The notes: generated from the letters alone by a model not told the origin. DNA of 64,000 bases from an uncultured Gemmatimonadota bacterium (GCA_902825965.1 CADEDA010000008.1:89264-153263); one strand, 5' to 3'; counted from the stretch's first letter, positions 32,858 through 58,725 are shown. Made by a program: numbers and translations.

Positions 32858-32875
32858 CTCACACAGTTCTCACAC
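32858..32875 (-). promoter_or_regulatory. Tandem heptamer site a, before the HK/RR operon
   Basis: On the plus strand the site reads CTCACAC-AGTT-CTCACAC, two perfect heptamers 11 bp apart. It ends 64 bp before the kinase ATG. If the neighbouring regulator binds it, the operon is autoregulated. Confidence 0.7.
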
Positions 32876-32939: not shown

Positions 32940-34661
32940 ATGATCCGTGAGCGACTCAGCCAGCGAATCGTCGGCGGAATTGTGCAAGTGCTGGGAGCCC
33001 GTCCGAGCCGACTCGGCCCGGAGCGACTCACCGTGGTCGCGAGTGCACTCATCGTTCTCCTGACGATCACCGCCGGTGCGCTGGGGGTGAGCTATGCCAT
33101 GGATGCCCGAAAGGACCACGAACGCGCGCGCGCGAGTGCCTCCGCGCTTGCGACGGGGCTGATCCGCCGGCTGCTCTCCGAGTCCGTGCAGTCAGGCTGG
33201 AGGATCGTCCTTGAGTCCATGCTGCCCGTCCTGTCGGCCGACGTGCGCGGGCTCCCGGTGACGACGCGCGCGATGGACCGACGCGCTCGCGATTTCGCCG
33301 CGAGCTGTCGGTGCGCGACCATGACGCCGAGCGCGATCTTTGTCGCCGACCTTCACACCGGGGCGGTAGAGGAGTCGGGCGGGCCCGACCGCACACCACT
33401 TTCAGTGGGAGCCCGCAAGGCCATCCTGGCATTCGCTGACACCGCAACGCCCGAAGTCCGACGCATCAGTGCGCTCCTGATCGACGACGCGACGGGACCC
33501 GCCATGGCCTTCGTCCGCGTGGCAACGCTCAGCGAAGATCGCCGAATCGCTGGAGCGTTTGTCGTGCCGCTCTCGCAGTTGGGTCCCAAGGTGTTCGCGC
33601 CGGCCACGAGGACGGTGCTCGACGCGGTCTACGGTGACCTCCCACAGCGTGATTCGGTCTTCTCCCTCCTGATCACGCTGCGCGACTCGACCCCCGTCTT
33701 CCGGTCACCGTGGCAGGGCGACGGCATCGGCAGCACCCTTGAGTTCTGGCCGGACGACAGTCCACTCCTCCGGGCCACGCTGGAACTCAATCCTGCGCTG
33801 CTTCACCTCGTACTGCCGAGCGGCGTCCCTGACTTTCCTGCCGGAATCGCGTTCGTTGCCGCCCTGCTCCTGGTCTCGGCGGCAGCGGCGAGCCTGTTCG
33901 CGCTCCATCGGGCGCGTCATCTCATCGCCGCCCGCACGCTCTTCCTGAGCGGTGTCAGTCATGAGCTGCGCACACCGCTCACACAGATTCTTCTCTACAC
34001 CGAGCTGCTCGAGGACCCCAAGGCCGATGACGATCGGCGGACTCGAGCAATCGAGGTGATCGGCCGGGAGACCCGCCGACTCATTCACATGATCGAGAAC
34101 GTCCTGCTGTTCGCGCGAAGCGCGCGCCGCGACCTTCCGCTGAACCTCCGCGACCAGGAGTTGGCACCACTCGTGCGCGATATCATCGCGGACCTCGGTC
34201 CGTTGGTCGGTCGCGCCGGGGTGCGCGTCGCGCTTGCGCTCCATTCCGATCGCAAGGTCCGCATCGATCTCGGGGCGGTCCGACAGATCGTGGTCAACCT
34301 CCTCGACAACGCCATGAGATACGGACCAGCGGGACAACGTGTGCGGCTCTCGGTGCGCGACTGCGGCGAGCGCGTCGAGCTCGTCGTCGAGGACGAAGGC
34401 CCCGGCATCCCACGGGAGGTACGCGAGCGTCTGCGGGCGGCGGCACCCGGCGTGGCGACACCGGGGCATGGAACCGGAGCAGGACTCGGGCTCTCGTTGG
34501 TGAAGGTGCTCGCGCGCGCGATGGAGGCTTCACTCACCATCGACGACGGACAGGACGGAGGGGCGCGTGTCGCGATCAGCTTCCCTGCACTCGGTTCGCG
34601 GGAGCAAAGGCGTGACACGGACACGGTGCCGGCGGAGCTACCGGGGGAGGAGTTCGCGTGA
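32940..34661 (+). CDS. Membrane sensor histidine kinase
   Basis: The 573-residue protein has a first membrane helix at about 31-53, an extracytoplasmic domain of about 240 residues, a second helix at about 300-322 and a HisKA/HATPase core. The phospho-accepting His is in SGVSHELRTPLTQ (about residue 341). The ATPase has the N box NLLDNAMRYG, DEGPGIP and GTGAGLGLSLV. There is no HAMP domain of normal length. The sensor domain matches nothing I recognise. The TGA overlaps the GTG start of the response regulator. A tandem heptamer site lies 64 bp upstream. Confidence 0.93.
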   Translation: MIRERLSQRIVGGIVQVLGARPSRLGPERLTVVASALIVLLTITAGALGVSYAMDARKDHERARASASALATGLIRRLLSESVQSGWRIVLESMLPVLSADVRGLPVTTRAMDRRARDFAASCRCATMTPSAIFVADLHTGAVEESGGPDRTPLSVGARKAILAFADTATPEVRRISALLIDDATGPAMAFVRVATLSEDRRIAGAFVVPLSQLGPKVFAPATRTVLDAVYGDLPQRDSVFSLLITLRDSTPVFRSPWQGDGIGSTLEFWPDDSPLLRATLELNPALLHLVLPSGVPDFPAGIAFVAALLLVSAAAASLFALHRARHLIAARTLFLSGVSHELRTPLTQILLYTELLEDPKADDDRRTRAIEVIGRETRRLIHMIENVLLFARSARRDLPLNLRDQELAPLVRDIIADLGPLVGRAGVRVALALHSDRKVRIDLGAVRQIVVNLLDNAMRYGPAGQRVRLSVRDCGERVELVVEDEGPGIPREVRERLRAAAPGVATPGHGTGAGLGLSLVKVLARAMEASLTIDDGQDGGARVAISFPALGSREQRRDTDTVPAELPGEEFA

Positions 34662-35344
34662 TTCGGGTACTGATCGTAGAGGACACGTCGGACATCGCGC
34701 TGGGTGTGAGGGACTATCTCGTGCAGCAAGGCTGCGAGGTCCGCATCGCAGTCTCCGGCGAGGAGGCGCTTCCGGCCATCCGCGAGTGGATACCTGATGT
34801 CGTGCTCCTCGATCTCATGTTGCCGGGCATGAGTGGCTACGAGGTACTTCGACAGATCAGGTTGCAGGGTATCGAAGCACCGGTGTTGATCCTCTCGGCG
34901 AAGAGCGACGAAATGGCGAAGATTCGGGGCTTCCGTGTCGGGGCAGATGACTACGTGACCAAGCCCTTTAGCTTGCGCGAACTTGCCGCTCGGGTCCGCG
35001 CCCTCGGTCGACGCGTAGTGCAACCGAAACCTACCCCGGAGGTGCTTCGCTTCGGCGACATCGAGATTCGTCCGCTCGCGCGAAGAGTGCTCCGCGCCGG
35101 CGTCGAGATCGGCCTGCGACCGAAGGAGTACGACCTGCTGATGGCGTTGCTTGGGCATCCGAACGAGGTGGTGTCGCGGACGTTCCTTCTGGCGCAGGTG
35201 TGGTCGTACGAACCCGGCGTGGAGTCCCGCACCGTCGACTGGCACGTCGCGGAGCTTCGGAGGAAGCTCGCCGACGATGCGACGGCCCCGCGTCTCATCG
35301 AAACCGTTCGCAAGGCCGGGTATCGTTGGAACGGCGAGGCCTGA
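34658..35344 (+). CDS. OmpR/PhoB-family response regulator
   Basis: The 228-residue protein has a receiver (residues 1-115, acid pocket Glu 8/Asp 9, phospho-acceptor Asp 52 in LLDLML, Lys 102 in TKPF) and an OmpR-type winged helix (about 128-226). The recognition helix (about 189-204) reads SRTVDWHVAELRRKL. OmpR-family regulators bind direct repeats about 11 bp apart, which is the form of the heptamer sites in this window. The same helix, with four changes in 15 residues, occurs in the ChrB-like fusion at 45552-46337. It is coupled to the kinase by GTGA overlap. Confidence 0.95.
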   Translation: MIRVLIVEDTSDIALGVRDYLVQQGCEVRIAVSGEEALPAIREWIPDVVLLDLMLPGMSGYEVLRQIRLQGIEAPVLILSAKSDEMAKIRGFRVGADDYVTKPFSLRELAARVRALGRRVVQPKPTPEVLRFGDIEIRPLARRVLRAGVEIGLRPKEYDLLMALLGHPNEVVSRTFLLAQVWSYEPGVESRTVDWHVAELRRKLADDATAPRLIETVRKAGYRWNGEA

Positions 35345-35348
35345 CTCC

Positions 35349-36959
35349 GTGCGACGGGACTGCTGGACCGTGGCGCTACTCGCGCTCGGGGTGCTGGTGT
35401 CGGGGTCGACCGACGCCCAGGGGCTCAATCACATCTACGTCTTCGTGGACTCGGCGTCTTACGACCGCCTCGCGTCGTCGCGCCTGCTCCACGACAGCGT
35501 CGCCGTTGTTCGGGAGGGCGTCGTGTCGGACGCCATGTCCTCCTGGTCCGCGCTGTATTTGTTCGGGCGCAGCACTTACCTCGAGATCTTTCGCGCGGCA
35601 CGCGGGACCCCGCCGGCGGGAACCATGGCAATCGCGTTCGGGACGGACACGCCTGCCGAGTTTGCGGCGCTGACGAATCGCCTGCGCGCGGCGTTCGGCG
35701 CCGACCTTACAGAGCGTCGCCGCGAGAGAGTTGTGGATGGCGATACGCTCCCATGGTTTGAGCAACTGGAGCTCGTGCCCGAGGCGACGGCAAGCCCCTG
35801 GGTGCGGTGGTGGGTCATGCAGTATGACTCGACGCACAACGCCCGGCGCTGGCCGACGTTCCCGGAGATCGCTGGACGCAGCGACCGGCGGTCGTATCTC
35901 CTGCCGCTGCAGCAACCGCGCGCCATGGCGGACATCGCGCGCGTTCGTGTCGCGCTCCCGGCGGCGGAGCGTCGAGCACTGGTGCGTCAGCTGGAACGGT
36001 TGGGTCTCCGTACAACCTTCGCGGGTGATGCGACGCGGATTGAGGGCAACGCGATTGAGCTGGACGTCGTCGGCGTGAGCGAGGAGCAGACGCCCGGCTT
36101 CGCGGACGCCATCCTACGCACCGAGGGGTCGATCGCTCCAGGTGTCCTCGTCGAGGGAGCGTTTGAAGTCGAGGCACGGGAGCGCGACCTCCGCTTCGGA
36201 CGCTCCCTCCGCTGCGCGACTGCCGTGGAGACGGTGGAAACCGAGGATGGCCACCTCTCGATCTGTCGCCGGGGAAGCACCGCACCTGTCGTCGTCTTCG
36301 AGAGCGGACTCGGCGAGGGCATGATGGCTTGGCGCACCGTGACGGACAGCCTCGCTGCCACCGCAACGACGATCGCATATGCGCGGTCTAACTTGCGCCG
36401 GACCGCGAAGACGCCACCCGACTCCTTCGACGCGTCGCGGTCGGCAGACTTGCTGGCGACGGCGCTGGATCGCCTCGGGGTCCGCGGCCGCATCATCCTC
36501 GTCGGACACTCGCTCGGGGGCGCCTACGCGCAGGTCTTTGCGGCACGTTTCCCTGCTCGGGTGCGCGCGCTCGTTCTGGTGGATCCGACGCCGTCCGGCT
36601 TCTTCGCCGAACAGCGCAAGATCGTCGGGACGGAACGATATCTTGCGCAACAGGCACGTATTGAGGCCGGCCTCTCCTCTGGAGCGTTGGCTGAGTGGCG
36701 GGCGATCGACACGAGCCTCCGCTTGGCCGCACGACTTCGCGCCATACCCGGTGTCCGGGTCGTGATTCTGTCAGCGGGTGCGGTGCAGAATCCCGACCCC
36801 GTGCAGGGACCGCGCTTGAAGCGACTTTGGCTCGAGCTGCACGCGGGACTCGCGCGACGGCTCGGCGGCCGTCATGAGGTAGTCAGTGGCGCGGGTCATC
36901 GAATCCAGGATGAGCGGCCGGACCGCGTCCTCGCGGCCATCCGCGAGGTGATGCCGTAG
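35349..36959 (+). CDS. Exported alpha/beta hydrolase with N-terminal DUF5829-like domain
   Basis: The GTG at 35349, four bases after the regulator stop, gives 536 residues with a signal sequence ending TDAQ. Residues 25-290 resemble DUF5829 (LNHIYVFVDSASYDRLASSRLL, LYLFGRSTYLEIF). The remainder is an alpha/beta hydrolase with VVVFESGLGEG, the nucleophile elbow GHSLGG, an acid in LVDPTPSGFF and a His in SGAGHRIQDERP. It is the third gene of the kinase/regulator operon and so a likely member of the regulated set. The fusion of these two domains is not one I know. Confidence 0.78.
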   Translation: MRRDCWTVALLALGVLVSGSTDAQGLNHIYVFVDSASYDRLASSRLLHDSVAVVREGVVSDAMSSWSALYLFGRSTYLEIFRAARGTPPAGTMAIAFGTDTPAEFAALTNRLRAAFGADLTERRRERVVDGDTLPWFEQLELVPEATASPWVRWWVMQYDSTHNARRWPTFPEIAGRSDRRSYLLPLQQPRAMADIARVRVALPAAERRALVRQLERLGLRTTFAGDATRIEGNAIELDVVGVSEEQTPGFADAILRTEGSIAPGVLVEGAFEVEARERDLRFGRSLRCATAVETVETEDGHLSICRRGSTAPVVVFESGLGEGMMAWRTVTDSLAATATTIAYARSNLRRTAKTPPDSFDASRSADLLATALDRLGVRGRIILVGHSLGGAYAQVFAARFPARVRALVLVDPTPSGFFAEQRKIVGTERYLAQQARIEAGLSSGALAEWRAIDTSLRLAARLRAIPGVRVVILSAGAVQNPDPVQGPRLKRLWLELHAGLARRLGGRHEVVSGAGHRIQDERPDRVLAAIREVMP

Positions 36960-37060
36960 CCCAGCCAGACAAGTCTTTCAGGACGCAAACGCATACGGAC
37001 CGGAGACCGTCAGCGCGCGTGGGTATGATGGGACGAGACCCTACTCCGGAGTGAGCAGCC

Positions 37061-38227
37061 GTGTTCCAGCAACTTTCGAAGCGCGCCCACGTGACCCTCG
37101 CCCTCGTGCTCGGTGCTGTTCTGGCTTGTGCCGGTGGTGGCACCGAACCCCCGACGGGGAACGCCCGTGAGACGATCGAGGTCAGCCTCTCAGCGAATGC
37201 GCTGGTGCCGGGCCAGCCGGCGACGGCGACGGCAGTGGTGCGCGACGATGCGGGCGCGGTCATCCCGGATGCCGCAGTCACATGGGGCTCAACGAACGGC
37301 ATGGCCGCCAGCGTCGCCGCCGATGGGGGAGTGACGGCACTGGCTCCGGGTGGGTCGACCATTGTCGCGACTCGCCCGGGAGGAGCGAGCGGGAGTGCGG
37401 CAGTCTCCGTGGCCGAAGGGGCTTGGGCGACTCCTGCGGGAGGCACCTTTGCCGGCTTCGGCGGACTGATCGAGCTCCAGATCCCGCCCGCAGCCGTCTC
37501 CGCCCCTCGAGCCCTGCATTTCAACAGAGCGTCAACAGCGCTGCCAGACCCGACCGGAGTCGAGCGGGCGCAGTTCACCGTCGGCACTTCGGCAGACGTG
37601 TTCCTGGTACCGGCGACCCTTCGACTCCGGTTCACCGCAGACTCCGCACCGTATGGCCTTCCGCGATCGTCGCTCGGGATCCGAGTCCTGCAGTCGGACA
37701 CGTGGTCGAACGTCCCGGGCAGCGCGATCGCTTCGGGAGTCGACCGCGCCGAGGCACCGATATCCGCCGGTGGCCACTACGGGGTCGGTCGGCTCATCCC
37801 GACGATGCCATGCACTGACGCCGCATATCGTGCGTTCGACTTCTGGCTGGGAGACTGGGACGTGAGTAGCGGCGGCACTCTGGTGGGGCGCAATCGGGTC
37901 ACGTTGGAGCCCGGTGGCTGCGCGGTCTTCGAGGACTATACGTCTGGCCCGGGCGGTGGGCGCAGCATCTCGTTCTACGAGCCAACGTCGGATGCCTGGT
38001 ACCAGACGTACCTTGACTACTCGGGTGCGCGACTTGAGATCAGTGGACCGGTGGGCACTCCGGGATCACTCAGGATGCGCACGGTGGGCTTGCCTCCACT
38101 CTATGACCGCTGGGAATGGACCTTGCTGCCATCGGGCGAGGTTACGCAGGTCGCCTCGCGGACGCTCAACAATGGCGTGAGCTTCGGAGCGCCGTACTGG
38201 AACGGACTCTACCGTCGGCGCCCGTAA
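37061..38227 (+). CDS. Lipoprotein with Big2-like Ig domain and C-terminal DUF1579-like domain
   Basis: The GTG start gives 388 residues with a lipobox-like LACAG. A bacterial Ig-like domain (Big2) follows: SLSANALVPGQPATATAVVRDDAGAVIPDAAVTW and VTALAPGGSTIVA. The middle part resembles a ZU5/Ig-like beta domain with FGGLIELQIPPAAV. The C-terminal 130 residues are DUF1579-like (AAYRAFDFWLGDWDV, GGCAVFEDYTSGPGGGRSISFYEP, WYQTYLDYSG). No heptamer site is evident in its short upstream region. The function is unknown, and the Ig region suggests surface display. Confidence 0.75.
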   Translation: MFQQLSKRAHVTLALVLGAVLACAGGGTEPPTGNARETIEVSLSANALVPGQPATATAVVRDDAGAVIPDAAVTWGSTNGMAASVAADGGVTALAPGGSTIVATRPGGASGSAAVSVAEGAWATPAGGTFAGFGGLIELQIPPAAVSAPRALHFNRASTALPDPTGVERAQFTVGTSADVFLVPATLRLRFTADSAPYGLPRSSLGIRVLQSDTWSNVPGSAIASGVDRAEAPISAGGHYGVGRLIPTMPCTDAAYRAFDFWLGDWDVSSGGTLVGRNRVTLEPGGCAVFEDYTSGPGGGRSISFYEPTSDAWYQTYLDYSGARLEISGPVGTPGSLRMRTVGLPPLYDRWEWTLLPSGEVTQVASRTLNNGVSFGAPYWNGLYRRRP

Positions 38228-39624
38228 GACGGTCCCGGGCCGCGGCGCACAGGCAACTCACTCGGCGGCCCCGCGCGGCCGGAAGGGGCCGCCGCCGAGG
38301 TGACCCTGAGCAACCACTCGAGCATCGTGGCGTGGACGGCCGGATGGAATCCGTGGGCGCTGCCAGGCCCGCAGGTGAGTAGCAGACTGTGATCGGCACA
38401 CGGTAGGATCCGGACCTCAAGACGCCCCTCGACGCGCTCGTCTATCCGCCTGAGCGCGGAGTCCTGCTTGCGGGCGATGACCCGATCATCGTCGCCGCCA
38501 AGCAGATACAGCACGTCGAGTGCGCGCGCAGGATAGAGTTCTGCTGGTTCGCCCTCGAGGACGGCGCGATACGCATCCCAGAAGGGAGCGGTGTTGGGAT
38601 GCGTGGTGAGCTGCTGTGCCGTGTAGTGACGTCGCCACGTAGCGCCCGCGGCTAGGCTGCGCGCCTCGATTTCCGCGACGGTTGACTTCGCCCGCAGCCC
38701 GAGCGCCGCCTCACCTCGCGCCCGGAGCCACTCGCTGGCCGCGAGCCACTCTCCGGCCGAGGCGCTCGCCTTGCGCAATCGGGTCTCCTCCTGGTCGAGC
38801 ACTGCCTCCAAGTGAGGTCGTGCTGAACACACCCGGCAGAGCACGAACGCAATTCGGCTGTCGGCAGCCGCCACCCGCGGCGCGATGAATCCTCCTTCAC
38901 TACCGGCCACCAGTCCGAGCCGAGAGGTGTCGACCCGCGGGTGTGCCGCGAACTTCTGCACCGCGCTTCGCACGTCCGCGGCCCAGTCTGCATGCCCAAG
39001 CACCCCAGGAGGTCCCTCTGAGCGACCGGCACCCGGCTTGTCATACGCCAAGACCGTGAACCCCTTGGCGGCAAGCCAGTCCGCCGTGTACCTCGTACTG
39101 CGGCGCGTCAAGGGCCCTGATCCGGCGATCATCACGATCGCGGGGTAGCGTCCGGCTGCGGCGGGGGACACCAGCGTGCCGTGAAGGGAAAGATCGCGCG
39201 AGCGCCACGTGAACTCTTCTTCGTGAAGGGCGACGCGGGTCAATCGCCGGGAGCCGGTCTCCGACGAATCGATGAGCGCCGTGACTTCTGCGCCACGGAA
39301 CTCCACCACACGCAGGTGACCGACCGACGGCGTCGGCGCCGGCCAGCTACCACCGTACGACCACCCGGTGCCAGATGTCGCCAGAATGCGAGCCCAGCCA
39401 TCCGACATCCGGACGAGCGCCAGGGTCGTCCGGCCGGCGGTCTGGTCACTCAGGTCCATCACGGTGAACTCGGCGCCGCCTACGTCCCGGTAAAGTCCAG
39501 CCACCGGATGACGCAGAGAGGCTACCGCCGGCGGCTGGGTGGCGGCGACGCGCGCTGCCGGTACACCGGGCGTGCCCCAGATACCGAACAGCGTTCCTGC
39601 CAAGGCAATCACTCGCAGCGGCAT
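38209..39624 (-). CDS. Exported S9-like alpha/beta hydrolase
   Basis: The ATG at 39624 gives 471 residues with a signal sequence (ALAGTLFGIWGTPGVPAA). An N-terminal propeller-like or beta region of about 120 residues precedes an alpha/beta hydrolase domain: LHGTLVSPAAAGRYPAIVMIAGSGP, VLAYDKPGAGRSEG, the nucleophile elbow GSEGG, GGDDDRV with the acid and PCADHSLLL with the His. This is the layout of the acyl-CoA thioester hydrolase/BAAT-like and S15/S9-type exported hydrolases. A heptamer site lies 172 bp upstream, inside the 3' end of the neighbouring S41 gene. The 3' end overlaps the convergent gene at 37061 by 19 bp. Confidence 0.78.
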   Translation of the reverse strand: MPLRVIALAGTLFGIWGTPGVPAARVAATQPPAVASLRHPVAGLYRDVGGAEFTVMDLSDQTAGRTTLALVRMSDGWARILATSGTGWSYGGSWPAPTPSVGHLRVVEFRGAEVTALIDSSETGSRRLTRVALHEEEFTWRSRDLSLHGTLVSPAAAGRYPAIVMIAGSGPLTRRSTRYTADWLAAKGFTVLAYDKPGAGRSEGPPGVLGHADWAADVRSAVQKFAAHPRVDTSRLGLVAGSEGGFIAPRVAAADSRIAFVLCRVCSARPHLEAVLDQEETRLRKASASAGEWLAASEWLRARGEAALGLRAKSTVAEIEARSLAAGATWRRHYTAQQLTTHPNTAPFWDAYRAVLEGEPAELYPARALDVLYLLGGDDDRVIARKQDSALRRIDERVEGRLEVRILPCADHSLLLTCGPGSAHGFHPAVHATMLEWLLRVTSAAAPSGRAGPPSELPVRRGPGPSYGRRR

Positions 39625-39782
39625 TGTGGTGCGGTGAAGGACGTCCAGAGCGTGAGCGTTGCCGCGCGGCATGGACCCCCGAAGCCGTTGCGGCGGCATT
39701 GAGAGTACCTTCGACCCACCACAGGTCCCATGCCGCGACGGCGACGCTCTGACGCGAACTATGCTCGCTCGCGCATCGCAAG

Positions 39783-41132
39783 TCAGCGCTTCGCGGGTGT
39801 GAGTCCCGTGTGAGCTCCGCGCGCGGCGGCGCGAGCACTACGAATCCATGCGAGTGCGGCCTCGAACGCCGGGTCGCGGTTCGCGAAATAGTCGCTCGCC
39901 AAGACGGGCACCACGATGTCCGGTGCAATCCAGTCGCGCGTGTCGCCGATGTCGGCGTCGCGATGCCACACCGACGCTACGGCCACCTTCAGGCGGCTAT
40001 ACGGCAGCTGCGTCTCCGAGACGTCGCCGATGTGGTTGGGACGCGAGCCGGTCGGCTCGCCCACGAACGTCGCGTGGGTGCGTTGTTCGATCCGTGTCGC
40101 GAAGTTCTGTCCCGCCGAGAACGTGCCACGCCCCGTGATCACGACGATCCGATGCGCGCTCGCCGCGTCCTCGAACGCCTCGAACGCCTCGATCAGCGGG
40201 GGAAGCAGAAATCCGTTCCCGCCGTTGTTGCCGCGCACCTCCACGAGAACGCTCGTGAAGCGACCTGAGAGCAGGAGGCCGCGCACCCGGGCTGCGAAGG
40301 CAGCGAGCGTCTCGTGCGCTTCGTCACGGACGGCCTGAAACGACACGTAGAGCACTGAATCCGCCGGGAGAGAGTCGAGCCAGAAGGCGGTCTCACGGCG
40401 GCGCAGATACCACGGGGTCGCCACGCCCTCGCCTCCTGGCGGATACAGCCGCTGCATCGCGGCGCGCGCGTGGGACCCCACACGGACGGTCGATGTGGTG
40501 CCGCTGGCGAGCACGAGTCCCAAGGTCGTGGCGGAGTCGGTTGCACTGCCCCCGGCAGCGCGCACCACCGCTGGATACTGCATCAACTGCGCGCCGAACC
40601 ATCGCGCGCTCATCTCGTTGTCTCGCGGAACCAGTGGCGCCATGCGCGTGAGAAACTCGTCGATCGCAAGTCCGCCGATCGACGTCACGCGAGCACCGAG
40701 CAGGCCGCCGAGCCCGGGCCGCACGCTCGCGATGTGGACGCCGTCGTCGAACCAGTAGAAGTCCACCATCAGCGCATTGAAGCGCACGCTCCCTACATCA
40801 TCGGGAACGATCGACGTGTGCGCGTCCCCGAGTGCCACCAGCGCGCGCTGGATGCCCGCTACTACCGCCTCGTCGGGGAGCGCCGGGACCTCGGCAGACA
40901 GCGCACTGATCGCCGCCTCGAACCCGCGGAAGTCTGGGTCGCTCGGCGCTGGCGGATGCACCCTGAGGACCGCCGTTCGCAGTGCCTCAATGTCCCCACG
41001 CCAGCCGTTCACGCGGTCGTCCGGGTCAACCGCACCGTCACGAGAACAACCGAGCACTCCAACGATTGTGCAGAGCACGAGCGTCCGGGCGCGTATGCCC
41101 TGCGTGCGCAGCGTGGGGGATTGGGTAGGCAT
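39783..41132 (-). CDS. S41 family (C-terminal processing/tricorn-type) peptidase lipoprotein
   Basis: The ATG at 41132 gives 449 residues with a lipobox (GVLGC). A small N-terminal helical region, a PDZ-like segment (FNALMVDFYWFDDGVHIASVRPGLGG, GARVTSIGGLAIDEFL) and an S41 core follow. LVEVRGNNGGNGFLLPPL matches the conserved DxRxNxGG strand, and the catalytic Ser lies in GRGTFSAGQNFA. SRPNHIGD is the usual downstream motif. The enzyme probably cleaves peptides or misfolded proteins in the periplasm. A heptamer site lies 65 bp upstream. The last codons also contain site b. Confidence 0.85.
   Translation of the reverse strand: MPTQSPTLRTQGIRARTLVLCTIVGVLGCSRDGAVDPDDRVNGWRGDIEALRTAVLRVHPPAPSDPDFRGFEAAISALSAEVPALPDEAVVAGIQRALVALGDAHTSIVPDDVGSVRFNALMVDFYWFDDGVHIASVRPGLGGLLGARVTSIGGLAIDEFLTRMAPLVPRDNEMSARWFGAQLMQYPAVVRAAGGSATDSATTLGLVLASGTTSTVRVGSHARAAMQRLYPPGGEGVATPWYLRRRETAFWLDSLPADSVLYVSFQAVRDEAHETLAAFAARVRGLLLSGRFTSVLVEVRGNNGGNGFLLPPLIEAFEAFEDAASAHRIVVITGRGTFSAGQNFATRIEQRTHATFVGEPTGSRPNHIGDVSETQLPYSRLKVAVASVWHRDADIGDTRDWIAPDIVVPVLASDYFANRDPAFEAALAWIRSARAAARGAHTGLTPAKR
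39797..39814 (+). promoter_or_regulatory. Tandem heptamer site b, before the S9-like hydrolase gene
   Basis: The plus strand reads GTGTGAG-TCCC-GTGTGAG, a perfect pair 11 bp apart. It lies within the last codons of the S41 peptidase gene and 172 bp upstream of the ATG at 39624, farther than the other sites. Confidence 0.55.
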
Positions 41133-41197
41133 CACGGCAAGGGAAAGAGGTTCGGGTGCAATTTCTCGCGTCCGCCAGTCGCCCGTGTCCGAGTGAC

Positions 41198-41215
41198 GTT
41201 TGATCTGTGTGTGAG
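41198..41215 (+). promoter_or_regulatory. Tandem heptamer site c, before the S41 peptidase gene
   Basis: The plus strand reads GTTTGAT-CTGT-GTGTGAG. The second heptamer is perfect and the first has two changes. It lies 65 bp from the S41 ATG at 41132 and 127 bp from the divergent DUF1579-like gene at 41343. Confidence 0.6.
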
Positions 41216-41228
41216 GTTCGCGACGCCC

Positions 41229-41249
41229 GTATGCACACCGTTTGCATAC
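41229..41249. promoter_or_regulatory. Perfect inverted repeat in the divergent S41/DUF1579 promoter region
   Basis: GTATGCA and TGCATAC form perfect 7-bp arms separated by 7 bp. The site is between two divergent starts and next to heptamer site c. The dyad form suggests an operator for a dimeric repressor rather than an OmpR-type site. Confidence 0.4.
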
Positions 41250-41342
41250 ACGCCCGGAGCAGCCCCGGATGGGCAGGCACCGTATCTCTCCACTGTCCAC
41301 GCAATCCGCTCCCCCTCCCCCACCGTCCAGTCGCTCCCGCTC

Positions 41343-41948
41343 ATGAGTGCGATCTCCTGGTTGCAGAGGGTCGTCCGGCTCCATCCTCCATCGCGCATTC
41401 TTCGCGCATCGGTGGTGGTCGCCGCGCTCGGCTTCACCTTGGCCTCGCCGCTCGCCTTCGCCCAGTCAGCGGCGCCGGCGCGCCCGCTGACCGCCCCCAC
41501 CTGTGCGGAGCCCGAGTTCGGGCAATTCGACTTCTGGGTCGGTGAGTGGATCGTCTTCGACACGCTCGGGCAGGAGGTGGGCCGTAACACCGTCGAGCGC
41601 GTGCTCGGCGGCTGCGTGCTGACTGAGAGCTGGATTGGTGCCAGCGGCTCGCGGGGTAGGAGTCTCAACATCTACGATCGCTTCGCCAAGCGCTGGCATC
41701 AGTCGTGGGTCGACGATCAAGGGCTGCTCCTCCAACTGGATGGGGGCCTGCACGAGGGCAGCATGGTGCTCCAGGGAGACCGACAGCGCCCTGACGGCGG
41801 GCGGGCCCGTCACCGCATCGCCTTCGCGCCGCTTCCTGACGGTTCCGTGCGACAACACTGGCAACGCAGCCTTGATGAGGGCCGCTCATGGACCACGGCG
41901 TTTCTCGGCATCTATCGGAGAACGGCCCCTCGGCAGACCCCTCAATAG
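41343..41948 (+). CDS. Exported single-domain DUF1579-like protein
   Basis: The ATG at 41343 gives 201 residues. A signal sequence with a long N-region ends near PLAFAQ. One DUF1579-like domain follows: FGQFDFWVGEWIVFD, GGCVLTESWIGASGSRGRSLNIYDRFAKRWHQSWVDDQG, SMVLQGDR. It is the cleanest and shortest of the four family members in the window. The function is not established. It is divergent from the S41 peptidase and sits just upstream of the metallo-beta-lactamase-fold gene. Confidence 0.78.
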   Translation: MSAISWLQRVVRLHPPSRILRASVVVAALGFTLASPLAFAQSAAPARPLTAPTCAEPEFGQFDFWVGEWIVFDTLGQEVGRNTVERVLGGCVLTESWIGASGSRGRSLNIYDRFAKRWHQSWVDDQGLLLQLDGGLHEGSMVLQGDRQRPDGGRARHRIAFAPLPDGSVRQHWQRSLDEGRSWTTAFLGIYRRTAPRQTPQ

Positions 41949-41971
41949 CTCCCGTCTCCGCGGAAGCGTTC

Positions 41972-41989
41972 GTGTGCGTACCGTGTGAG
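41972..41989 (+). promoter_or_regulatory. Tandem heptamer site e, before the MBL-fold lipoprotein gene
   Basis: The plus strand reads GTGTGCG-TACC-GTGTGAG, with one change in the first heptamer. It ends 67 bp before the ATG at 42057. Confidence 0.65.
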
Positions 41990-42056
41990 CGAGCCGGAAA
42001 CCGCCTTGCGTGCCCCGCAGGCAGGGTATCTCTGCCGGACCCGATTCGGAGCTGCC

Positions 42057-43523
42057 ATGCGTCGCAACACGCTCGCTGTACTATCGATCGTCACTCTGTG
42101 CCTGGATTCGGCCTGTTCCGGCAAGTCGACGGCACCTCCCACACCGACGCTGACCTCCATCGAGATCACCGGTTCGACGACCTTCACACTGGGCAGCGCC
42201 GCAAGCCTGCAGTACAGTGCAACGGGGCGCGATCAGTCAGGCCGGCCCTTTCCGACGACGTTCTCCTGGAGTTCGTCCGAGGTCGCCCGAGCCACTGTCG
42301 ATGCCATGGGACTCGTGACACCCGTCAGCGTGGGAACAGTGGAGATTCGCGCCACCTCCATGGGCGTGACTGCTGCGCGCACCTTGCAGGTACTGCCGGC
42401 CCCGCCGGCACCGACGGCGACCGCAGTCGAACTGGACGACGTGACGAACGTCGGGAATGCCAGCGACTTCGTGGTGCGCTTCACGCGCGCTGGCGATGAG
42501 ACTCGGCTCGCCGAGTATCGAGTGATCCTCGTCAAGAGCGCAGCCCAGTCTACGTTCTCGCTGGCAGCCGCCGCGGCACTGCCCGCCGCGCGCTACACCG
42601 TGGTGGCGCGCGGTGCTGGCCTCGCCGTAGTCCCGCTTGCCGCGGCTCTCCGGGATAGTGACGGTGATGAGATCGCGACGCACACGGAGTACACCGCCGT
42701 CGTGCTCTCGATCGCCGACGGCGCCCGCGCCACCCAGCATGCGCTCTCCAGCGCCTCCAACACGATGGCGCTCACGCCCTCGACGATAAAGATCACGTTC
42801 ATCGCCGATGACGGCGTGGCGATCACCGATGGCACGAAGACGGTGCTGATCGATGCACTGCCGCAGACCTCCTCCGTGCTGGTGAACGGGCAAGCGATCA
42901 TTTGGCACTCAGCCGCACCCGGGTTGCTCGCCCGCATCCGGGACGGTGACCCGCCGTTCGACAACGTCGCCGCCTTGCTCATCACGCATGATCATCCGGA
43001 TCACTGGGAGGCCAGCAGCACCACGACCTTCCTCAACGCCCACCCGGCGACGACGGTCGTGGCACCGACCAGCGTCGCGGCCGCCTTCGCTGGACACGCA
43101 CGGGTCCGTGCGTTGAGCCCCGTGCTCTTCCACGCGGAGACCACGGTGGTCGACGGCATCACGATCGAAGCGCTACGGATGGTGCACTTCAGCAACTTCG
43201 GCGTCGACTTCTCAGGGGTGGAGAACATCGCCTTTGTTGTGACCATGGGAGGAAAGCGCATCCTGCATCTCGCGGACTCCGACTTTACAGCGGCGAACTA
43301 CACGCCGTTCGCCTTGACTGCCCGCAATATCGATGTGGCCATCTTGCCGGCGGCGGAGTTCAAGCTCACGCCGGCGAGCATCGGCTTCGTTCGCACGCAC
43401 ATCGCCCCCGCCGCGATCATCGCCTCCCATCTCGAGACGAAGACCAGCGAGGCGACCGTCAAGTCGATCTGGGGCAGCGACGTAAAGGTGTTCACCTCCT
43501 CTCTGCAGTTCTTCCGGTTCTAG
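42057..43523 (+). CDS. Exported Big2 plus metallo-beta-lactamase-fold protein (UlaG-like)
   Basis: The ATG at 42057 gives 488 residues with a signal sequence, probably a lipoprotein (Cys in DSACSG). A Big2 Ig-like domain follows (TSIEITGSTTFTLGSAASLQYSATG, GLVTPVSVGTVEIRA), then a linker and a metallo-beta-lactamase domain of the UlaG/lactonase type with THDHPDHW, HADSDF-like HLADSDF and IASHLE. The hydrolase part may act on phosphodiesters or lactones. The Ig module suggests attachment to a surface. The heptamer site 67 bp upstream puts it in the putative regulon. Confidence 0.78.
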   Translation: MRRNTLAVLSIVTLCLDSACSGKSTAPPTPTLTSIEITGSTTFTLGSAASLQYSATGRDQSGRPFPTTFSWSSSEVARATVDAMGLVTPVSVGTVEIRATSMGVTAARTLQVLPAPPAPTATAVELDDVTNVGNASDFVVRFTRAGDETRLAEYRVILVKSAAQSTFSLAAAAALPAARYTVVARGAGLAVVPLAAALRDSDGDEIATHTEYTAVVLSIADGARATQHALSSASNTMALTPSTIKITFIADDGVAITDGTKTVLIDALPQTSSVLVNGQAIIWHSAAPGLLARIRDGDPPFDNVAALLITHDHPDHWEASSTTTFLNAHPATTVVAPTSVAAAFAGHARVRALSPVLFHAETTVVDGITIEALRMVHFSNFGVDFSGVENIAFVVTMGGKRILHLADSDFTAANYTPFALTARNIDVAILPAAEFKLTPASIGFVRTHIAPAAIIASHLETKTSEATVKSIWGSDVKVFTSSLQFFRF

Positions 43524-43547
43524 CGTCAGCTCCTGCGGCTCCCGGTG

Positions 43548-44792
43548 TCAGCCATCACGTATCCGTTGCCACACGACCCGCAGAAGCACATTGGCACCGT
43601 CAACCAACTGCTCCGCCGGCGTGTACTCTCCCGGGCAGTGGCTGAGTCCGTCGGCGCTCGGCACAAAGATCATGGCGGTGGGCACGATCTTCGCCATGAG
43701 GCCGGCGTCGTGTCCTGCCCCGGACACCAGTCTCATCGTCGAGCACCCGAGTGCTGCCGCCGCGGACTCCACTTGGGTCGTCAGTGATTCGTCGAACCGT
43801 ATCGGGGGCAAGTGTACCGTGCGCCTTGCCGTCACCTCGACACCTGTTGCGCGCACCACCGCAGCGATCGCCGCGTCCACGCGCGCCGCGATCGTGCCGA
43901 ATCGCTCCGGCCGCGGCTCGCGCAGGTCGAGTGACATGCGCACGACCCCGGGGACGACGTTCACCTCCCCCGGTCCTACGATCAGGGACCCCACGGTGGC
44001 GGCGGAGATCGCCGCTGCACCGACCGTGAGCTGCCTCACGGCCAGCACGAGCTCGGCCGCAGCGACGAGCGCGTCCCGGCGGTTGGACATCGGAGTGGTC
44101 CCCGCGTGGTTCGCCTCGCCGCGCAGTTCGACCTCGTACCACGCGATCCCTTGTATTCCGCTCACGACACCGATCCCGGCACCGGCCGCATTGAGGACGG
44201 GTCCCTGCTCGATGTGCAGTTCGAGGAAGGCACTGGTGCGTACCGATCCGATCTTCGTCTCCCCGCGATAGCCGATGCGAGCGAGTGCGGAAGCGACCGT
44301 GCACCCACTGGCGTCGCGGCTGGCGAGGGCCTCCTCTAGCGACAGCGCCCCCGCGTGGACCGCCGACCCCATCATGTCGGGAGCGAAGCGCACGCCTTCC
44401 TCGTTGGTGAATGCGACCACTCCGATCGTGCGTCGCGGGTGTACGCCCGCGGCGCGGAGTGCCGCCACGCACTCCAGCGCCGCGATGACGCCGTACGCAC
44501 CGTCGTAGGTGCCGGCATTCGTGACCGTGTCGATGTGCGAACCCATCAACAGCTCGCAGTGGTCGCATTCTCGCAGCCCTCTCCACAGGCCGAAGACGTT
44601 CCCGATCTGGTCCACTTGGACCTCCAGTCCCTCTTCGCGCATCCAACACACCAACTGCCGTCGACCCTCCCCATCGGCCGCGGTCAACGCAAGACGGGAC
44701 AGACTGCCGTCAGGTCCGCGTCCGATTCGTCCCAGATGCAGCAGACGGCGGACGAGGCGTTCTCCATCGATCTTGGGTAGTGGACTCTCCAT
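43548..44792 (-). CDS. M20-family hydantoinase/carbamoylase-type amidohydrolase
   Basis: The ATG at 44792 gives 414 residues with no signal sequence. The zinc-site motifs of the AllC/HyuC group are complete: GSHIDTVTNAGTYDGAYGV, FTNEEGVRFAPDMMGS, HIEQGPVL, the dimerisation motif ELRGEANHAGTTPMSNRRDALVAAAE and GAGHDA near the C-terminus. Members hydrolyse N-carbamoyl-L-amino acids, ureidoglycolate or allantoate. The exact substrate cannot be decided from sequence. It is one of the few cytoplasmic proteins behind a heptamer site (57 bp upstream). Confidence 0.88.
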   Translation of the reverse strand: MESPLPKIDGERLVRRLLHLGRIGRGPDGSLSRLALTAADGEGRRQLVCWMREEGLEVQVDQIGNVFGLWRGLRECDHCELLMGSHIDTVTNAGTYDGAYGVIAALECVAALRAAGVHPRRTIGVVAFTNEEGVRFAPDMMGSAVHAGALSLEEALASRDASGCTVASALARIGYRGETKIGSVRTSAFLELHIEQGPVLNAAGAGIGVVSGIQGIAWYEVELRGEANHAGTTPMSNRRDALVAAAELVLAVRQLTVGAAAISAATVGSLIVGPGEVNVVPGVVRMSLDLREPRPERFGTIAARVDAAIAAVVRATGVEVTARRTVHLPPIRFDESLTTQVESAAAALGCSTMRLVSGAGHDAGLMAKIVPTAMIFVPSADGLSHCPGEYTPAEQLVDGANVLLRVVWQRIRDG

Positions 44793-45551
44793 GTAGCCCG
44801 TACGCACGGCCCCCGGACCGCGATGCACGCGCGATGCGGCGCCTCGAGGCTCACACACCTCTCACACCAATGCGCCACACGGCTCCCCGCACCCACCTGT
44901 GAAGGGACCGGGTTCCGATCCGGAGAGCGTGCGGCCAGTGTCAGCGCGCCGGGCCGTCGCCCGGTCGCGTGCCTGTGGCACGTCGCCGCTCCTCCAAGAC
45001 CGAAGAGTCCGCACGGAAGCTGCCGCCCCTTCGGCGAGACGGTCGTCGCGTCGCCCGCAGCGGCTGTTGCGGTCGCTGCTCCACCTGGAGGCTTCGTGGT
45101 TCGGCTCGGGCGGGACACGAGGCCCGTGGAGCGTTTCACTCGCGGCGGCGATCACATCACCTCCGTGGTGGCGGGACGTGTGCCGACCGCGCGTTTCGCT
45201 CGCTACCACGATTGGGCGATACTAGTGGGCGAGTGACGCGGTTCTCGATGCGCGCGACCGCCGGCGATGGACTCCCGCTAAGCGACCACCCGGACGTGTC
45301 CCTCACTTGACTTCGCTTCCGAGTCGGACACGCGCCTAATCGATCGCCACTATGACGACCCGTTGGTGCAGCGGAGCGCAACAACGGCGGCCGCATTCCC
45401 ACGCCTGGCCATTCCGTGCGCCTCGGAAGCGCGCGCTGGCGTCGCCGAATGACGGCCGAGCACCTTGTCATTGAGTGGGCCGCTCGGCAGTGGTCGGTCT
45501 CGGTGGGGCGGGCGCGGGAAGCCGCTCTTCGCTGACGTGGAGCTTCTCACG
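44793..45551. other. 760-bp gap without a recognisable gene
   Basis: The left 75 bp contain heptamer site f. The remainder has only low-quality Arg/Ser/Pro-rich frames on both strands and no hairpin or repeat that I can support. Confidence 0.4.
44850..44867 (-). promoter_or_regulatory. Tandem heptamer site f, before the M20 amidohydrolase gene
   Basis: The minus (coding) strand reads GTGTGAG-AGGT-GTGTGAG, two perfect heptamers. It ends 57 bp before the ATG at 44792. Confidence 0.7.
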
Positions 45552-46337
45552 TCATCCCGACCGATCATCCTCGCGCCAGCGATAGCCCGCTCCTCTGATC
45601 GTCTCGAGAGCCTCCCCGGTTGGTCCCAGCTGCTTGCGCAGGGCCGCGATGTGCCAGTCTACGGTTCGCGACGTGACACCGGACTGATAGTCCCACACGT
45701 GCTGCAGCAAGAAGCCCCGGCTGAGTATGCGTCCGCTCCTCGCGACCAGTGCCACCAGCAGTGAGAACTCCTTCGGCTTGAGAGGCACGACCTGCCCTCG
45801 CACCAGCGCGCGGCGCGCGGATACGTGCAGTTCGACATCGTGCGAACACAGTCGGTCCCACGACGGTTCACCGGGGTCCGTCACGCGAAGGGGATCCCAC
45901 CCGTGCACCTCGTTTCTTGCGTGCTGCAACCACTCGTAGAGGGCGTCGTAGACGACGAATCCGGTCGTGAGCATTCGCTGATCGTCATCCATGCACAGCC
46001 GCGAGAGTCCCAGGGAGATCGCTAACAGTCCCGCTGCCTGGGGCGCGAGCTCCAGGCGCGCGGTGTCGGCACTCCGCACGATGTCAGCCAGGTCCCGGAG
46101 CGCGGGTGTCTGAAGTCGGTACCGGTGGAGGAACGCATCGAAGGAGCAGCGGTCGTCGTGGTGCCCGAGCTCCGCACCCTCCACATCGAACGGCGTCGCG
46201 CCCAGCACCCGCGCGCGCTCCCACACCTCATCTGCGGGCACAAAGAAGAACCTGGGTGCGCGGTCGATGAACCGTGCGATGAGCCACGGACAGGCGACGC
46301 GATCGATCTTTGGACGCTCCCGAGTGATCCATTTCAC
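45552..46337 (-). CDS. ChrB-like domain fused to an OmpR-type winged-helix DNA-binding domain
   Basis: The GTG at 46337 gives 261 residues. Residues 2-137 match the C-terminal domain of chromate-resistance protein ChrB (WITRERPKIDRVACPWLIARFID, FDVEGAELGHHDDRCSFDAFL, GFVVYDALYEWL). Residues about 165-256 are an OmpR/PhoB-type winged helix whose recognition helix SRTVDWHIAALRKQL is 11/15 identical to that of the response regulator at 34658. There is no receiver domain. The protein may therefore sense a metal oxyanion or redox ligand directly and bind the same heptamer sites. It lies 37 bp after the aminotransferase gene in the same operon. No chrA is visible. Confidence 0.82.
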   Translation of the reverse strand: MKWITRERPKIDRVACPWLIARFIDRAPRFFFVPADEVWERARVLGATPFDVEGAELGHHDDRCSFDAFLHRYRLQTPALRDLADIVRSADTARLELAPQAAGLLAISLGLSRLCMDDDQRMLTTGFVVYDALYEWLQHARNEVHGWDPLRVTDPGEPSWDRLCSHDVELHVSARRALVRGQVVPLKPKEFSLLVALVARSGRILSRGFLLQHVWDYQSGVTSRTVDWHIAALRKQLGPTGEALETIRGAGYRWREDDRSG

Positions 46338-46374: not shown

Positions 46375-47679
46375 TCACGAGTGGCGCACGGCGCTCGCGA
46401 GCGCGTCCCCGAAGCGGTCGATGTCGGCTTCGTTCGTGTACAAGTAGCACGATGCCCGCGCAGCCCTCGTTGTACCGAACCGCTCGAGGAGCGGCAGTGC
46501 CGCGAGGTCGCCACCCCGGATGGCCACACCAGCCTCATCGAGCGCCGCTACCACCTGTGCCGGAGTGCGCCCTTGCACCACAAAGGCGAACACACCGACT
46601 CTCGCGCGTGCATCAGGCGCCCCAATCAAACGGACGGTCGGAAGTGCCGCCAAGCGTTCGAGCATTCGGACGTTGATCCGCTCCTGATGCTGGCGGATCG
46701 CCGCGAAACCGATGCTGCGCAGGTAGCGCAGCGCAGCGGCGAGACCGATCGCTCCCGAGACGTTTGGCGTCCCGGCACCGAACTTGAGCGCCCCAGCGGA
46801 GAGTTCGGCGTGTTCCAACCCCACGTCGTGCGCCATGTTCGAGCCGTGATGCCACGCCGGCATGGACTCGAGCAACTCGCGCCTTCCCCACAAGACGCCA
46901 GCCCCCATCGGACCGAGGAGCTTGTGGCTGGAGAGCGCAAGGAAGTCGCACCCGATCGTCCGCACCTCGGTCGCCAGATGCGGCGCCGACTGCGCCGCAT
47001 CGACGACCACGATCCGATTGGGCCCGCGAGCGATTGAACAGATCTCTGCGATGGGGTTGATCAACCCGAGAACGTTGCTCACGTGGCTTACGGCGACGAT
47101 GCGTGTGCGCGGCCCGATCTTGGCTGCGAGATCTGCGAGGTCGGGGTAGCCGGCGTCCGTCAGGCCGAAGTACACCATGCGGGCCCCGGTACGCGCTGCC
47201 AACGCCCGCCACGGGAGCATGTTCGAGGAGTGTTCACCGACGCCGACGAGGATCTCGTCTCCTGATCGTACGTTTGCCGTTCCCCAGGTCGCGGCCACCA
47301 GATTCAGGCCCTCGGTGGTGCCACGGGTGAACACGACCTCCAGTGGATCCGTGGCGCCGACAAACTCTGCGGCGGTGCGTCGGGCCTCATCGAACGAGGC
47401 GGACGCGCGCCGCGCGAGCGTATGGAGCGCGGCGCCTGGATTCGCGTTGTCTGTCGCGTCGAACTGCCCCAAGGCGTCAATCACAACCTGGGGTCGCAGC
47501 GACGTCGCAGCCGTGTCGAGATACGTGAGGGGATGTCCGTTCACACGCTGCCGTAAGGCGGGGAACTGTGAACGCCAGTCGCTTCCGGCCTGGTGAACGG
47601 CCTCATTTCCGACGCGAGTCGCCAACTGCGATGCCGCCACCGCTCCCGCGACCTGCCCGATGAACTCTCGCCGAAACAT
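46375..47679 (-). CDS. Class V aminotransferase (SufS-like) with Tat-type leader and no catalytic Cys
   Basis: The 434-residue protein starts with FRREFIGQVAGAVAAS, a Tat-like leader. It has the PLP site of cysteine desulfurases (VVVDAAQSAPH, SSHKLLGP with Lys 253, the His in GEHSSNML). In SufS the catalytic loop reads RTGHHCAQP. Here the aligned segment is RGGDLAALP (388-396), so the Cys is an Ala and the enzyme cannot be an ordinary desulfurase. It may be an epimerase or lyase such as isopenicillin-N-epimerase-like members. An AGGAGG ribosome site precedes the ATG. Heptamer site g lies 70 bp upstream. Confidence 0.85.
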   Translation of the reverse strand: MFRREFIGQVAGAVAASQLATRVGNEAVHQAGSDWRSQFPALRQRVNGHPLTYLDTAATSLRPQVVIDALGQFDATDNANPGAALHTLARRASASFDEARRTAAEFVGATDPLEVVFTRGTTEGLNLVAATWGTANVRSGDEILVGVGEHSSNMLPWRALAARTGARMVYFGLTDAGYPDLADLAAKIGPRTRIVAVSHVSNVLGLINPIAEICSIARGPNRIVVVDAAQSAPHLATEVRTIGCDFLALSSHKLLGPMGAGVLWGRRELLESMPAWHHGSNMAHDVGLEHAELSAGALKFGAGTPNVSGAIGLAAALRYLRSIGFAAIRQHQERINVRMLERLAALPTVRLIGAPDARARVGVFAFVVQGRTPAQVVAALDEAGVAIRGGDLAALPLLERFGTTRAARASCYLYTNEADIDRFGDALASAVRHS

Positions 47680-47749: not shown

Positions 47750-47767
47750 CCCACACGTTCGCCACAC
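47750..47767 (-). promoter_or_regulatory. Tandem heptamer site g, before the aminotransferase/ChrB-fusion operon
   Basis: The minus (coding) strand reads GTGTGGC-GAAC-GTGTGGG, a variant with GTGTGG cores at the same 11-bp spacing. It ends 70 bp before the ATG at 47679. Confidence 0.5.
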
Positions 47768-47897
47768 AATGGAGTCCCCCGCCCCACAATGCACAATCGG
47801 CTTCTGCGTCGGCGGGGGCCCCGAATAACACCCGAGTCACCCTGCGCGACCACCTATGGCGCTCACCGGAGCGAGGCGAGTGCGCCTGGCGAGCTGG

Positions 47898-48854
47898 TCA
47901 TGGCCGGGGGTCTCGTCGACGAGTGGCGATCCACGCCTCAAAGCGCTCATTGAGCGCGTCGACCTCCGACGGCAGACAGAGCTCCCGCGCCGCGTCAGCC
48001 GGCCAAAGCACCTTTGGCTCATGTGACAATGCGGCCGCAAGACTCCCCCATGGTGCCGTGCCGCACGCGTTCGATTCAACGAAGCGAGTGAACAATCGCA
48101 CCTGCCGATAGAACGTCGCGAGATCGGTCAGACCACCCTGCGAGCGCATGTCGAGCTGCATCGTGCTCACCGACTCGCCACTCGCTCGGCGGCGGGCGAC
48201 CTCGGCGTGGATCGCGGCCACCAGCGAATCGCGCGCGATCGCCGGATGAGACATCGAAAAGAACGTCCGCAGCGGAATCGCTGCGCGGTGGGCTCGTGCG
48301 AGCGAATCGGCCGCGAGCCGATCGTCGAACTCAAGGCTCGCGGCCGCGACCTCGTCGAGCCAGTCCGGTGCCGACGTCGCGTACTGTCGCGTCGCCAGTC
48401 CGCCCCCGCTGGGCGCGGTCCACACATGCCGGGCAAATAGGAGGTGGCCGATCTCGTGCGCCATGGCAGACGTCGCCCGGGTCAAGTCCGTCGTGCCATC
48501 CGCGTTCCGCGCGACCTCCAGCAGCGGCCACGGGAAGACCCACGCCACACCCTGCGAGCGAAGCGCCGCAGAAAGTGCTCCGTTGACGCCGCTGCTGTCA
48601 ACCACAGCACCGCGCGATGGTCGCGTTCCCCACGCAGACTCGAACCGTGCGCTGGCCGCTTCGATGGTACGCAGAATCTGCCTTCGGACCTCGAGGTCCG
48701 CGGACACTGCGACAGCGCTGCTCGTTTCGTCGCACCCGAGGTCGGACCGAACGGCAAGGGCTGCGGGACACACCGAGACTGACAGCTGTGCAACAATTGC
48801 GAACGCAATCATGGCACGTGTTCTCCTGCCGCACCGCCAGCGGCTGCCGTTCAT
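47898..48854 (-). CDS. Exported HExxH metallopeptidase-like protein
   Basis: The 318-residue protein has a leader (an Arg-rich N-region then MIAFAIVAQLSVSVCPAALA) and a zinc-site motif MAHEIGHLLF near residue 133. A conserved acidic segment DWLDEVAAASLEF follows about 30 residues later and could give the third ligand. The layout matches small secreted gluzincin-like proteins. I prefer the ATG at 48854 because heptamer site h then lies 77 bp upstream, in line with the other sites. The ATG at 48812 is also possible. The substrate is unknown. Confidence 0.7.
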   Translation of the reverse strand: MNGSRWRCGRRTRAMIAFAIVAQLSVSVCPAALAVRSDLGCDETSSAVAVSADLEVRRQILRTIEAASARFESAWGTRPSRGAVVDSSGVNGALSAALRSQGVAWVFPWPLLEVARNADGTTDLTRATSAMAHEIGHLLFARHVWTAPSGGGLATRQYATSAPDWLDEVAAASLEFDDRLAADSLARAHRAAIPLRTFFSMSHPAIARDSLVAAIHAEVARRRASGESVSTMQLDMRSQGGLTDLATFYRQVRLFTRFVESNACGTAPWGSLAAALSHEPKVLWPADAARELCLPSEVDALNERFEAWIATRRRDPRP

Positions 48855-48931: not shown

Positions 48932-48949
48932 GTGTGAGTCTTGTGTGAT
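48932..48949 (+). promoter_or_regulatory. Tandem heptamer site h, before the HExxH protein gene
   Basis: The plus strand reads GTGTGAG-TCTT-GTGTGAT, with one change. It lies 77 bp from the ATG at 48854. Confidence 0.62.
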
Positions 48950-49132: not shown

Positions 49133-49150
49133 GTGTGAGTTCCGTTTGAG
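49133..49150 (+). promoter_or_regulatory. Tandem heptamer site i, before the repeat lipoprotein gene
   Basis: The plus strand reads GTGTGAG-TTCC-GTTTGAG. It ends 91 bp before the ATG near 49242, the same distance as site l. Confidence 0.68.
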
Positions 49151-51942: not shown

Positions 51943-51960
51943 CTCACATCGTTCTCACAC
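51943..51960 (-). promoter_or_regulatory. Tandem heptamer site k, between divergent genes
   Basis: The plus strand reads CTCACAT-CGTT-CTCACAC. It lies 108 bp from the ATG at 51834 and 130 bp from the ATG at 52091, so it could serve both genes. Confidence 0.62.
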
Positions 51961-53225: not shown

Positions 53226-53243
53226 GTGTGAGAACCGTGTGAC
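53226..53243 (+). promoter_or_regulatory. Tandem heptamer site l, before the DUF1259 gene
   Basis: The plus strand reads GTGTGAG-AACC-GTGTGAC, with one change. It ends 91 bp before the ATG at 53335. Confidence 0.68.
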
Positions 53244-58707: not shown

Positions 58708-58725
58708 CTCACACACGGCTCATAC
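58708..58725 (-). promoter_or_regulatory. Tandem heptamer site m, before the hydrolase gene at 57219
   Basis: The minus (coding) strand reads GTATGAG-CCGT-GTGTGAG, with one change. It ends 85 bp before the ATG at 58622. Confidence 0.65.

Follow-up and report, generated by a model that had tools for sequence, protein, structure and literature searches.

The 64,000-nucleotide stretch from an uncultured Gemmatimonadota bacterium (GCA_902825965.1 CADEDA010000008.1:89264-153263), referred to below as the window, encodes two regulators with different sensory parts and probably the same way of reading DNA. The first is an OmpR/PhoB-type response regulator (RR; 34658–35344, plus strand) with a Response_reg (E 1e-27) and a Trans_reg_C domain (E 5e-25). 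The gene in front of it encodes a sensor histidine kinase (HK; 32940–34661, plus strand) with HisKA and HATPase_c domains and is the first gene of the HK-RR operon, so that the RR belongs to an OmpR/PhoB two-component system. Its recognition helix, SRTVDWHVAELRRKL, is encoded by nucleotides 35225–35269 and contains Trp195. The second regulator (45552–46337, minus strand, GTG start at 46337) is a genuine domain fusion of ChrB_C (PF09828; residues 3–136, E 3e-47) and a PhoB-type winged helix-turn-helix (wHTH) domain (Trans_reg_C, PF00486; residues 181–253, E 4e-22). Its recognition helix is SRTVDWHIAALRKQL (nucleotides 45671–45627, minus strand) with Trp228. The two proteins and their helices agree with the initial annotation, and 11 of the 15 helix residues are identical between RR and fusion, the Trp included.

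This Trp aligns with V197 of PhoB, which together with T194, R201 and R219 makes up the four base-contacting residues of that protein (PMC3264566). At the positions of T194, V197 and R219 the RR and the fusion agree (Thr, Trp and Arg), and both therefore keep the equivalents of T194 and R219 but differ from PhoB in carrying Trp at V197. The residue had been called uncommon, and by count it is indeed rare: it is found in two of the eight convincing Trans_reg_C domains of this genome (4.07 Mb, 95% complete), and the codon pattern for RTVDWH has nine instances in 454 Gemmatimonadota genomes, namely four ChrB fusions (G000, which is the present genome, G076, G086 and G172), four RRs (G000, G124, G130 and G134) and an RR fragment (G393). 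A scan of the genomes for further fusions returned just the three already found, plus ordinary RR-type domains. The match in G393 (RTVDWHVAELRRC, L196 at about 5104–5133) was rejected as an intact regulator, as it is an RR fragment running into unrelated sequence; it represents a broken or frameshifted Trp RR. Only in the present genome do two instances occur together, less than 11 kb apart. Under independence, a Trp fusion would share a genome with an intact Trp RR by chance with a probability of about 0.035, calculated post hoc and ignoring relatedness, and this probability is smaller still for a distance below 11 kb. The pairing is not conserved, however, as three genomes have a Trp RR without the fusion and three have the fusion without a Trp RR: no RTVDWH response regulator was found in G076 (95% complete), G086 and G172 (74% complete).

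Upstream of the HK gene, 64 bp from its start, lies the exact direct repeat CTCACACagttCTCACAC (32858–32875, plus strand; CTCACAC-agtt-CTCACAC), so the promoter of the RR operon itself carries a pair of heptamers with a period of 11 bp, which we propose as the autoregulatory site of the RR. Using CTCACAC-N4-CTCACAC with at most one mismatch as query against the whole genome, all nine sites fall inside the window between 32858 and 58725, a region of 26 kb that begins at the HK-RR promoter, and the three perfect matches of the genome (32858, 39797 and 44850) are among them. By gene call, eight of these nine sites are intergenic (p 2e-5), as are nine of the 11 found with up to two mismatches, compared with 20% of the stretch being intergenic. 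The remaining one of the nine, the perfect site CTCACACgggaCTCACAC (39797–39814, minus strand), overlaps one gene at its end and precedes the next, an alpha/beta hydrolase gene (38209–39699). The other perfect site, CTCACACacctCTCACAC (44850–44867, plus strand), is found upstream of an M20 amidohydrolase gene (43548–44792) in reverse orientation. A site with two mismatches (41198–41215, minus strand) precedes an S41-like gene (39783–41132), and the others have one mismatch each: 41972–41989 (minus strand) upstream of a metallo-beta-lactamase-fold gene (42057–43523) in reverse orientation, 48932–48949 (minus strand) upstream of the gene at 47898–48812, 49133–49150 (minus strand) in an intergenic region, 51943–51960 (plus strand) between the divergent genes 50986–51834 and 52091–53110, 53226–53243 (minus strand) upstream of a DUF1259-domain gene (53335–54267) in reverse orientation and 58708–58725 (plus strand) upstream of the gene at 57219–58622, again reversed. 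Thus, some sites point along the genes and others against them; the products of the nearest genes are hydrolases and peptidases (alpha/beta hydrolase, S41-like, metallo-beta-lactamase fold, M20 amidohydrolase) or proteins without known function. The gene immediately after the RR (35370–36959) encodes a protein that combines DUF5829 with an alpha/beta hydrolase domain. The roughly 760 bp that separate the M20 gene from the fusion gene (44793–45551), with the site at 44850 inside, are without a convincing gene call. Tandem heptamers with an 11-bp period are the format of the PhoB/OmpR family; the E. coli PhoB site is CTGTCAT-N4-CTGTCAT.

The fusion gene sits within this 26-kb cluster in an operon with an upstream partner, a gene for a SufS/CsdA-like pyridoxal phosphate (PLP) enzyme of the cysteine desulfurase family (46375–47679, minus strand; Aminotran_5; SufS family E 3e-128), and the same order of desulfurase-like gene and fusion is found in G076 and G172. 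Fusion promoters are readable in these three genomes; the G086 contig breaks off within the desulfurase-like gene upstream of the fusion. Alignment of the three orthologous promoters revealed a single conserved block, (C/T)CACAC-N5-(C/T)CACAC-AAT, which reads CCCACACgttcGCCACACAAT here, TTCACACgtacATCACACAAT in G076 and GCCACACactcGTCACACAAT in G172. In the window it corresponds to CCCACACgttcGCCACAC followed by AAT (47750–47767, plus strand), the proposed operator of the fusion operon. As the strict CTCAC pattern misses the fusion operators at heptamer positions 1 and 2, a looser YCACAC pattern was used on the whole genomes: (C/T)CACAC-N5-(C/T)CACAC matches once in the 3.8 Mb of G076, at the fusion operator, and four times in G172, fusion operator included. 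The reader of the operator in G076 and G172 is likely the fusion rather than an RR, because the available sequence of both genomes holds no RTVDWH response regulator. That a third factor instead of the fusion reads the operator at 47750 is conceivable in so far as autoregulation by the fusion is deduced from position and conservation, but two CACAC words with a period of 11 bp are the format of the PhoB family and all three readable promoters have kept the block, which makes such a factor very improbable. A second near-repeat, CGCCACACAATG and CGCCCCACAATG, with its copies 20 bp apart, is present at 47760–47791, its first copy overlapping the fusion operator.

To relate the residue at the V197 position to the DNA word, we collected CTxyC repeats with an 11-bp period upstream of the operons of like RRs in related genomes. 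CTGAC goes along with Thr at this position (20 of 36, vs 0 of 28 other regulators, p 4e-7), CTTAC with Ile (6 of 11 vs 1 of 53, p 4e-5) and CTCAC with Trp (2 of 7 vs 1 of 57, p 0.03). The associated base at heptamer position 3 is C for Trp, G for Thr and T for Ile. In G134, which has the Trp RR but no Trp fusion, the single CTCACAC pair with at most one mismatch in 5.4 Mb is located 149 bp upstream of the Trp RR. In G124 ATCTCAC-ctaa-CGCAAAC precedes the Trp RR and CTCTCAC-ccaa-CGCAAAC a neighbouring gene. At this locus (L083, 5635–8365) ATCTCACctaaCGCAAAC precedes the Trp RR and CTCTCACccaaCGCAAAC, 16/18 identical to it, lies in a divergent promoter close by. We put the link between residue and base forward as a hypothesis for this group of regulators and not as a general code.

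The sensory half sets the fusion apart from the RR. ChrB_C takes the place of Response_reg, and the protein possesses no N-terminal receiver with a phosphorylatable Asp. It begins with ChrB_C (residue 3), lacks the N-terminal DNA-binding half of ChrB and carries the wHTH at its C-terminus. In an AlphaFold model of the fusion the wHTH was confident (residues 161–257, helix 223–243, two-strand wing) and agrees with the Trans_reg_C fold; the protein also matches response regulators in the PDB. The ChrB_C half was not modelled with confidence (mean predicted local distance difference test score, pLDDT, of 50 with 4 sequences) and this part of the model was not used. ChrB from Ochrobactrum tritici 5bvl1 belongs to the same sensor family and needs R180, R187 and H229 for its chromate response (PMC3817168); by spacing and by alignment to full-length ChrB these residues are matched by R6, R13 and H59 of the fusion. 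In known ChrB, however, the N-terminal half holds the DNA-binding part, which targets an imperfect inverted repeat (PMC3817168), whereas the fusion has ChrB_C first, the PhoB-type wHTH second and a direct repeat with an 11-bp period, and its operon partner is the cysteine-desulfurase-like gene instead of chrA. The sensor half is also about 60% identical to stand-alone ChrB_C proteins from chromate operons, such as that of Acidovorax sp. T1, which differ in having no wHTH and in being encoded in a plasmid chromate operon; in Acidovorax sp. T1 a chromate transporter and an Fe-Mn superoxide dismutase accompany the ChrB_C protein. In the present genome the chromate transporter gene chrA lies outside the fusion operon, elsewhere in the genome (contig C46), with no CTCAC-type site near its locus, and no chrA was found in G076 and G086. 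Because of the desulfurase-like partner, the ligand of the fusion may just as well be related to sulfur as be chromate. The SufS-like protein itself starts with MFRREFIGQVAGAVAAS, resembling a twin-arginine export signal, which is unusual for a cysteine desulfurase, and also matches the periplasmic PvdN-type model far under its cut-off. A search of the literature returned no description of a protein in which a ChrB-type sensor is joined to a PhoB-type DNA reader.

From the observed sequences, site distribution, conservation and association we infer binding, direction of regulation and ligand as follows. The RR, as output of the two-component system, would autoregulate the HK-RR operon and control the island of hydrolase genes via CTCACAC-N4-CTCACAC. 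The fusion would be a one-component regulator, with the ChrB_C sensor where a receiver would be, and is predicted to autoregulate its operon via (C/T)CACAC-N5-(C/T)CACAC-AAT. In both, Trp at the V197 position may pair with C at heptamer position 3. Each regulator would act mainly at its own sites; partial cross-binding at the CACAC core is plausible and could pass the signal of the fusion on to the RR island. We consider this explanation as a whole, with separate sensory inputs and a converged DNA reading, to be probable. The bolder version, in which two wHTH lineages independently gained Trp and the same word, thereby wiring a ChrB-sensor regulator into a two-component site cluster, and in which, within this group, a single residue, that at the V197 position, switches heptamer base 3 (Thr for G, Ile for T, Trp for C), appears rather doubtful to us.

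Several findings weigh against this explanation. Two paralogues in the same genome without the Trp, L004 (13/15 identical helix residues, SRTVDTHVVELRRKL) and L007 (12/15, TRTVDLHVAELRRKI), are nearer to the RR helix than the fusion is, and whole-helix similarity is therefore not diagnostic; as L004 has CTGAC repeats in its promoter despite its nearer helix, we rejected helix identity as a sign of shared specificity. The initial annotation would have given up its claim if most OmpR-type regulators of the genome had the same helix, which L004 and L007 bear out by half for the helix as a whole but not for the Trp. The PhoB R201 position differs, with Glu in the RR and Ala in the fusion. The window's fusion site reaches only 10.7 bits with a matrix of the RR sites, a score reached by 16 of 157 control regions. 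For the Trp RR of G130 no CTCAC site was found. Common descent confounds the association of residue and motif, most strongly for Ile, and the association is weak for the Trp class taken by itself. Moreover, PhoP from Mycobacterium tuberculosis, which has a different helix with Ser216 where PhoB has V197, reads TCACAGC-N4-TCACAGC (PMC4832192), a near-identical TCACA core in the same 11-bp format, so that Trp is not required for this core. Regarding the origin of the Trp, a tree of the wHTH domains calculated without the helix columns groups the four fusions with PhoB-like domains (99/94), separate from the Trp RRs, although this tree rests on a short domain. A single origin, with all eight Trp domains together, was 11.7 log units worse but not formally rejected in the approximately unbiased (AU) test (p 0.075). 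After leaving out the helix columns a recent common origin of both domains is thus unsupported, and convergence is probably the better account. A plain family resemblance of the helices, with a coincidental Trp that has no effect on DNA reading, could explain the identity of the RR to L004 and L007, but it would leave open why Trp at a base-contacting position tracks a distinct base in both lineages, also where a genome has one of them only, and we regard it as improbable.

The claim that both regulators probably read the same heptamer sites gains independent support at the level of the CACAC core, which is shared by the CTCACAC pairs of the RR and the fusion operator in three genomes, while the Thr and Ile paralogues go with CTGAC and CTTAC; it does not extend to position 2 and the AAT flank. 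That RR and fusion read the same kind of heptamer at this level is well supported by the sites compared. The differences could mean that the specificities are insulated, with regulators of similar core preference being kept apart by position 2, the AAT flank and residue 201, and with their nearness on the chromosome being incidental. Nearly all RR half-sites have T at position 2 and both half-sites of the window's fusion site have C, AAT flanks all three fusion operators and no other site in the island, and the residue at position 201 is Glu in one regulator and Ala in the other. On the other hand, the RR matrix gives the G076 fusion site (TTCACAC/ATCACAC) 18.7 bits, above all but one of the 157 control regions, and the specificities of RR and fusion therefore overlap; insulation falls a little short of an even chance. 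The further claim of one regulon with a phosphorelay and a direct ligand input, for which the fusion would have to bind and regulate the RR island sites in vivo, draws on the same rare Trp, the same core, the position of the fusion operon inside the cluster and a fusion consensus, (C/T)CACAC, that takes in the RR word TCACAC. It became no more than plausible, as the sole clear fusion site in this genome is its own operator at 47750, with C at position 2 and the AAT flank, and as no other genome examined has both regulators; we therefore hold a common regulon to be unlikely.

DNA specificity is hard to predict from sequence in the OmpR/PhoB family, the largest family of response regulators. The regulators compared here amount to a small natural experiment, in which a change of one base-contacting residue between nearly identical helices pairs with a change of one base in the operators, and a second lineage with the rare Trp shows the same result, which can be tested by a few point mutants. 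In the window, two signals appear to converge on similar DNA sites, a case open to testing, and a use of identical sites by both regulators is no more than plausible.

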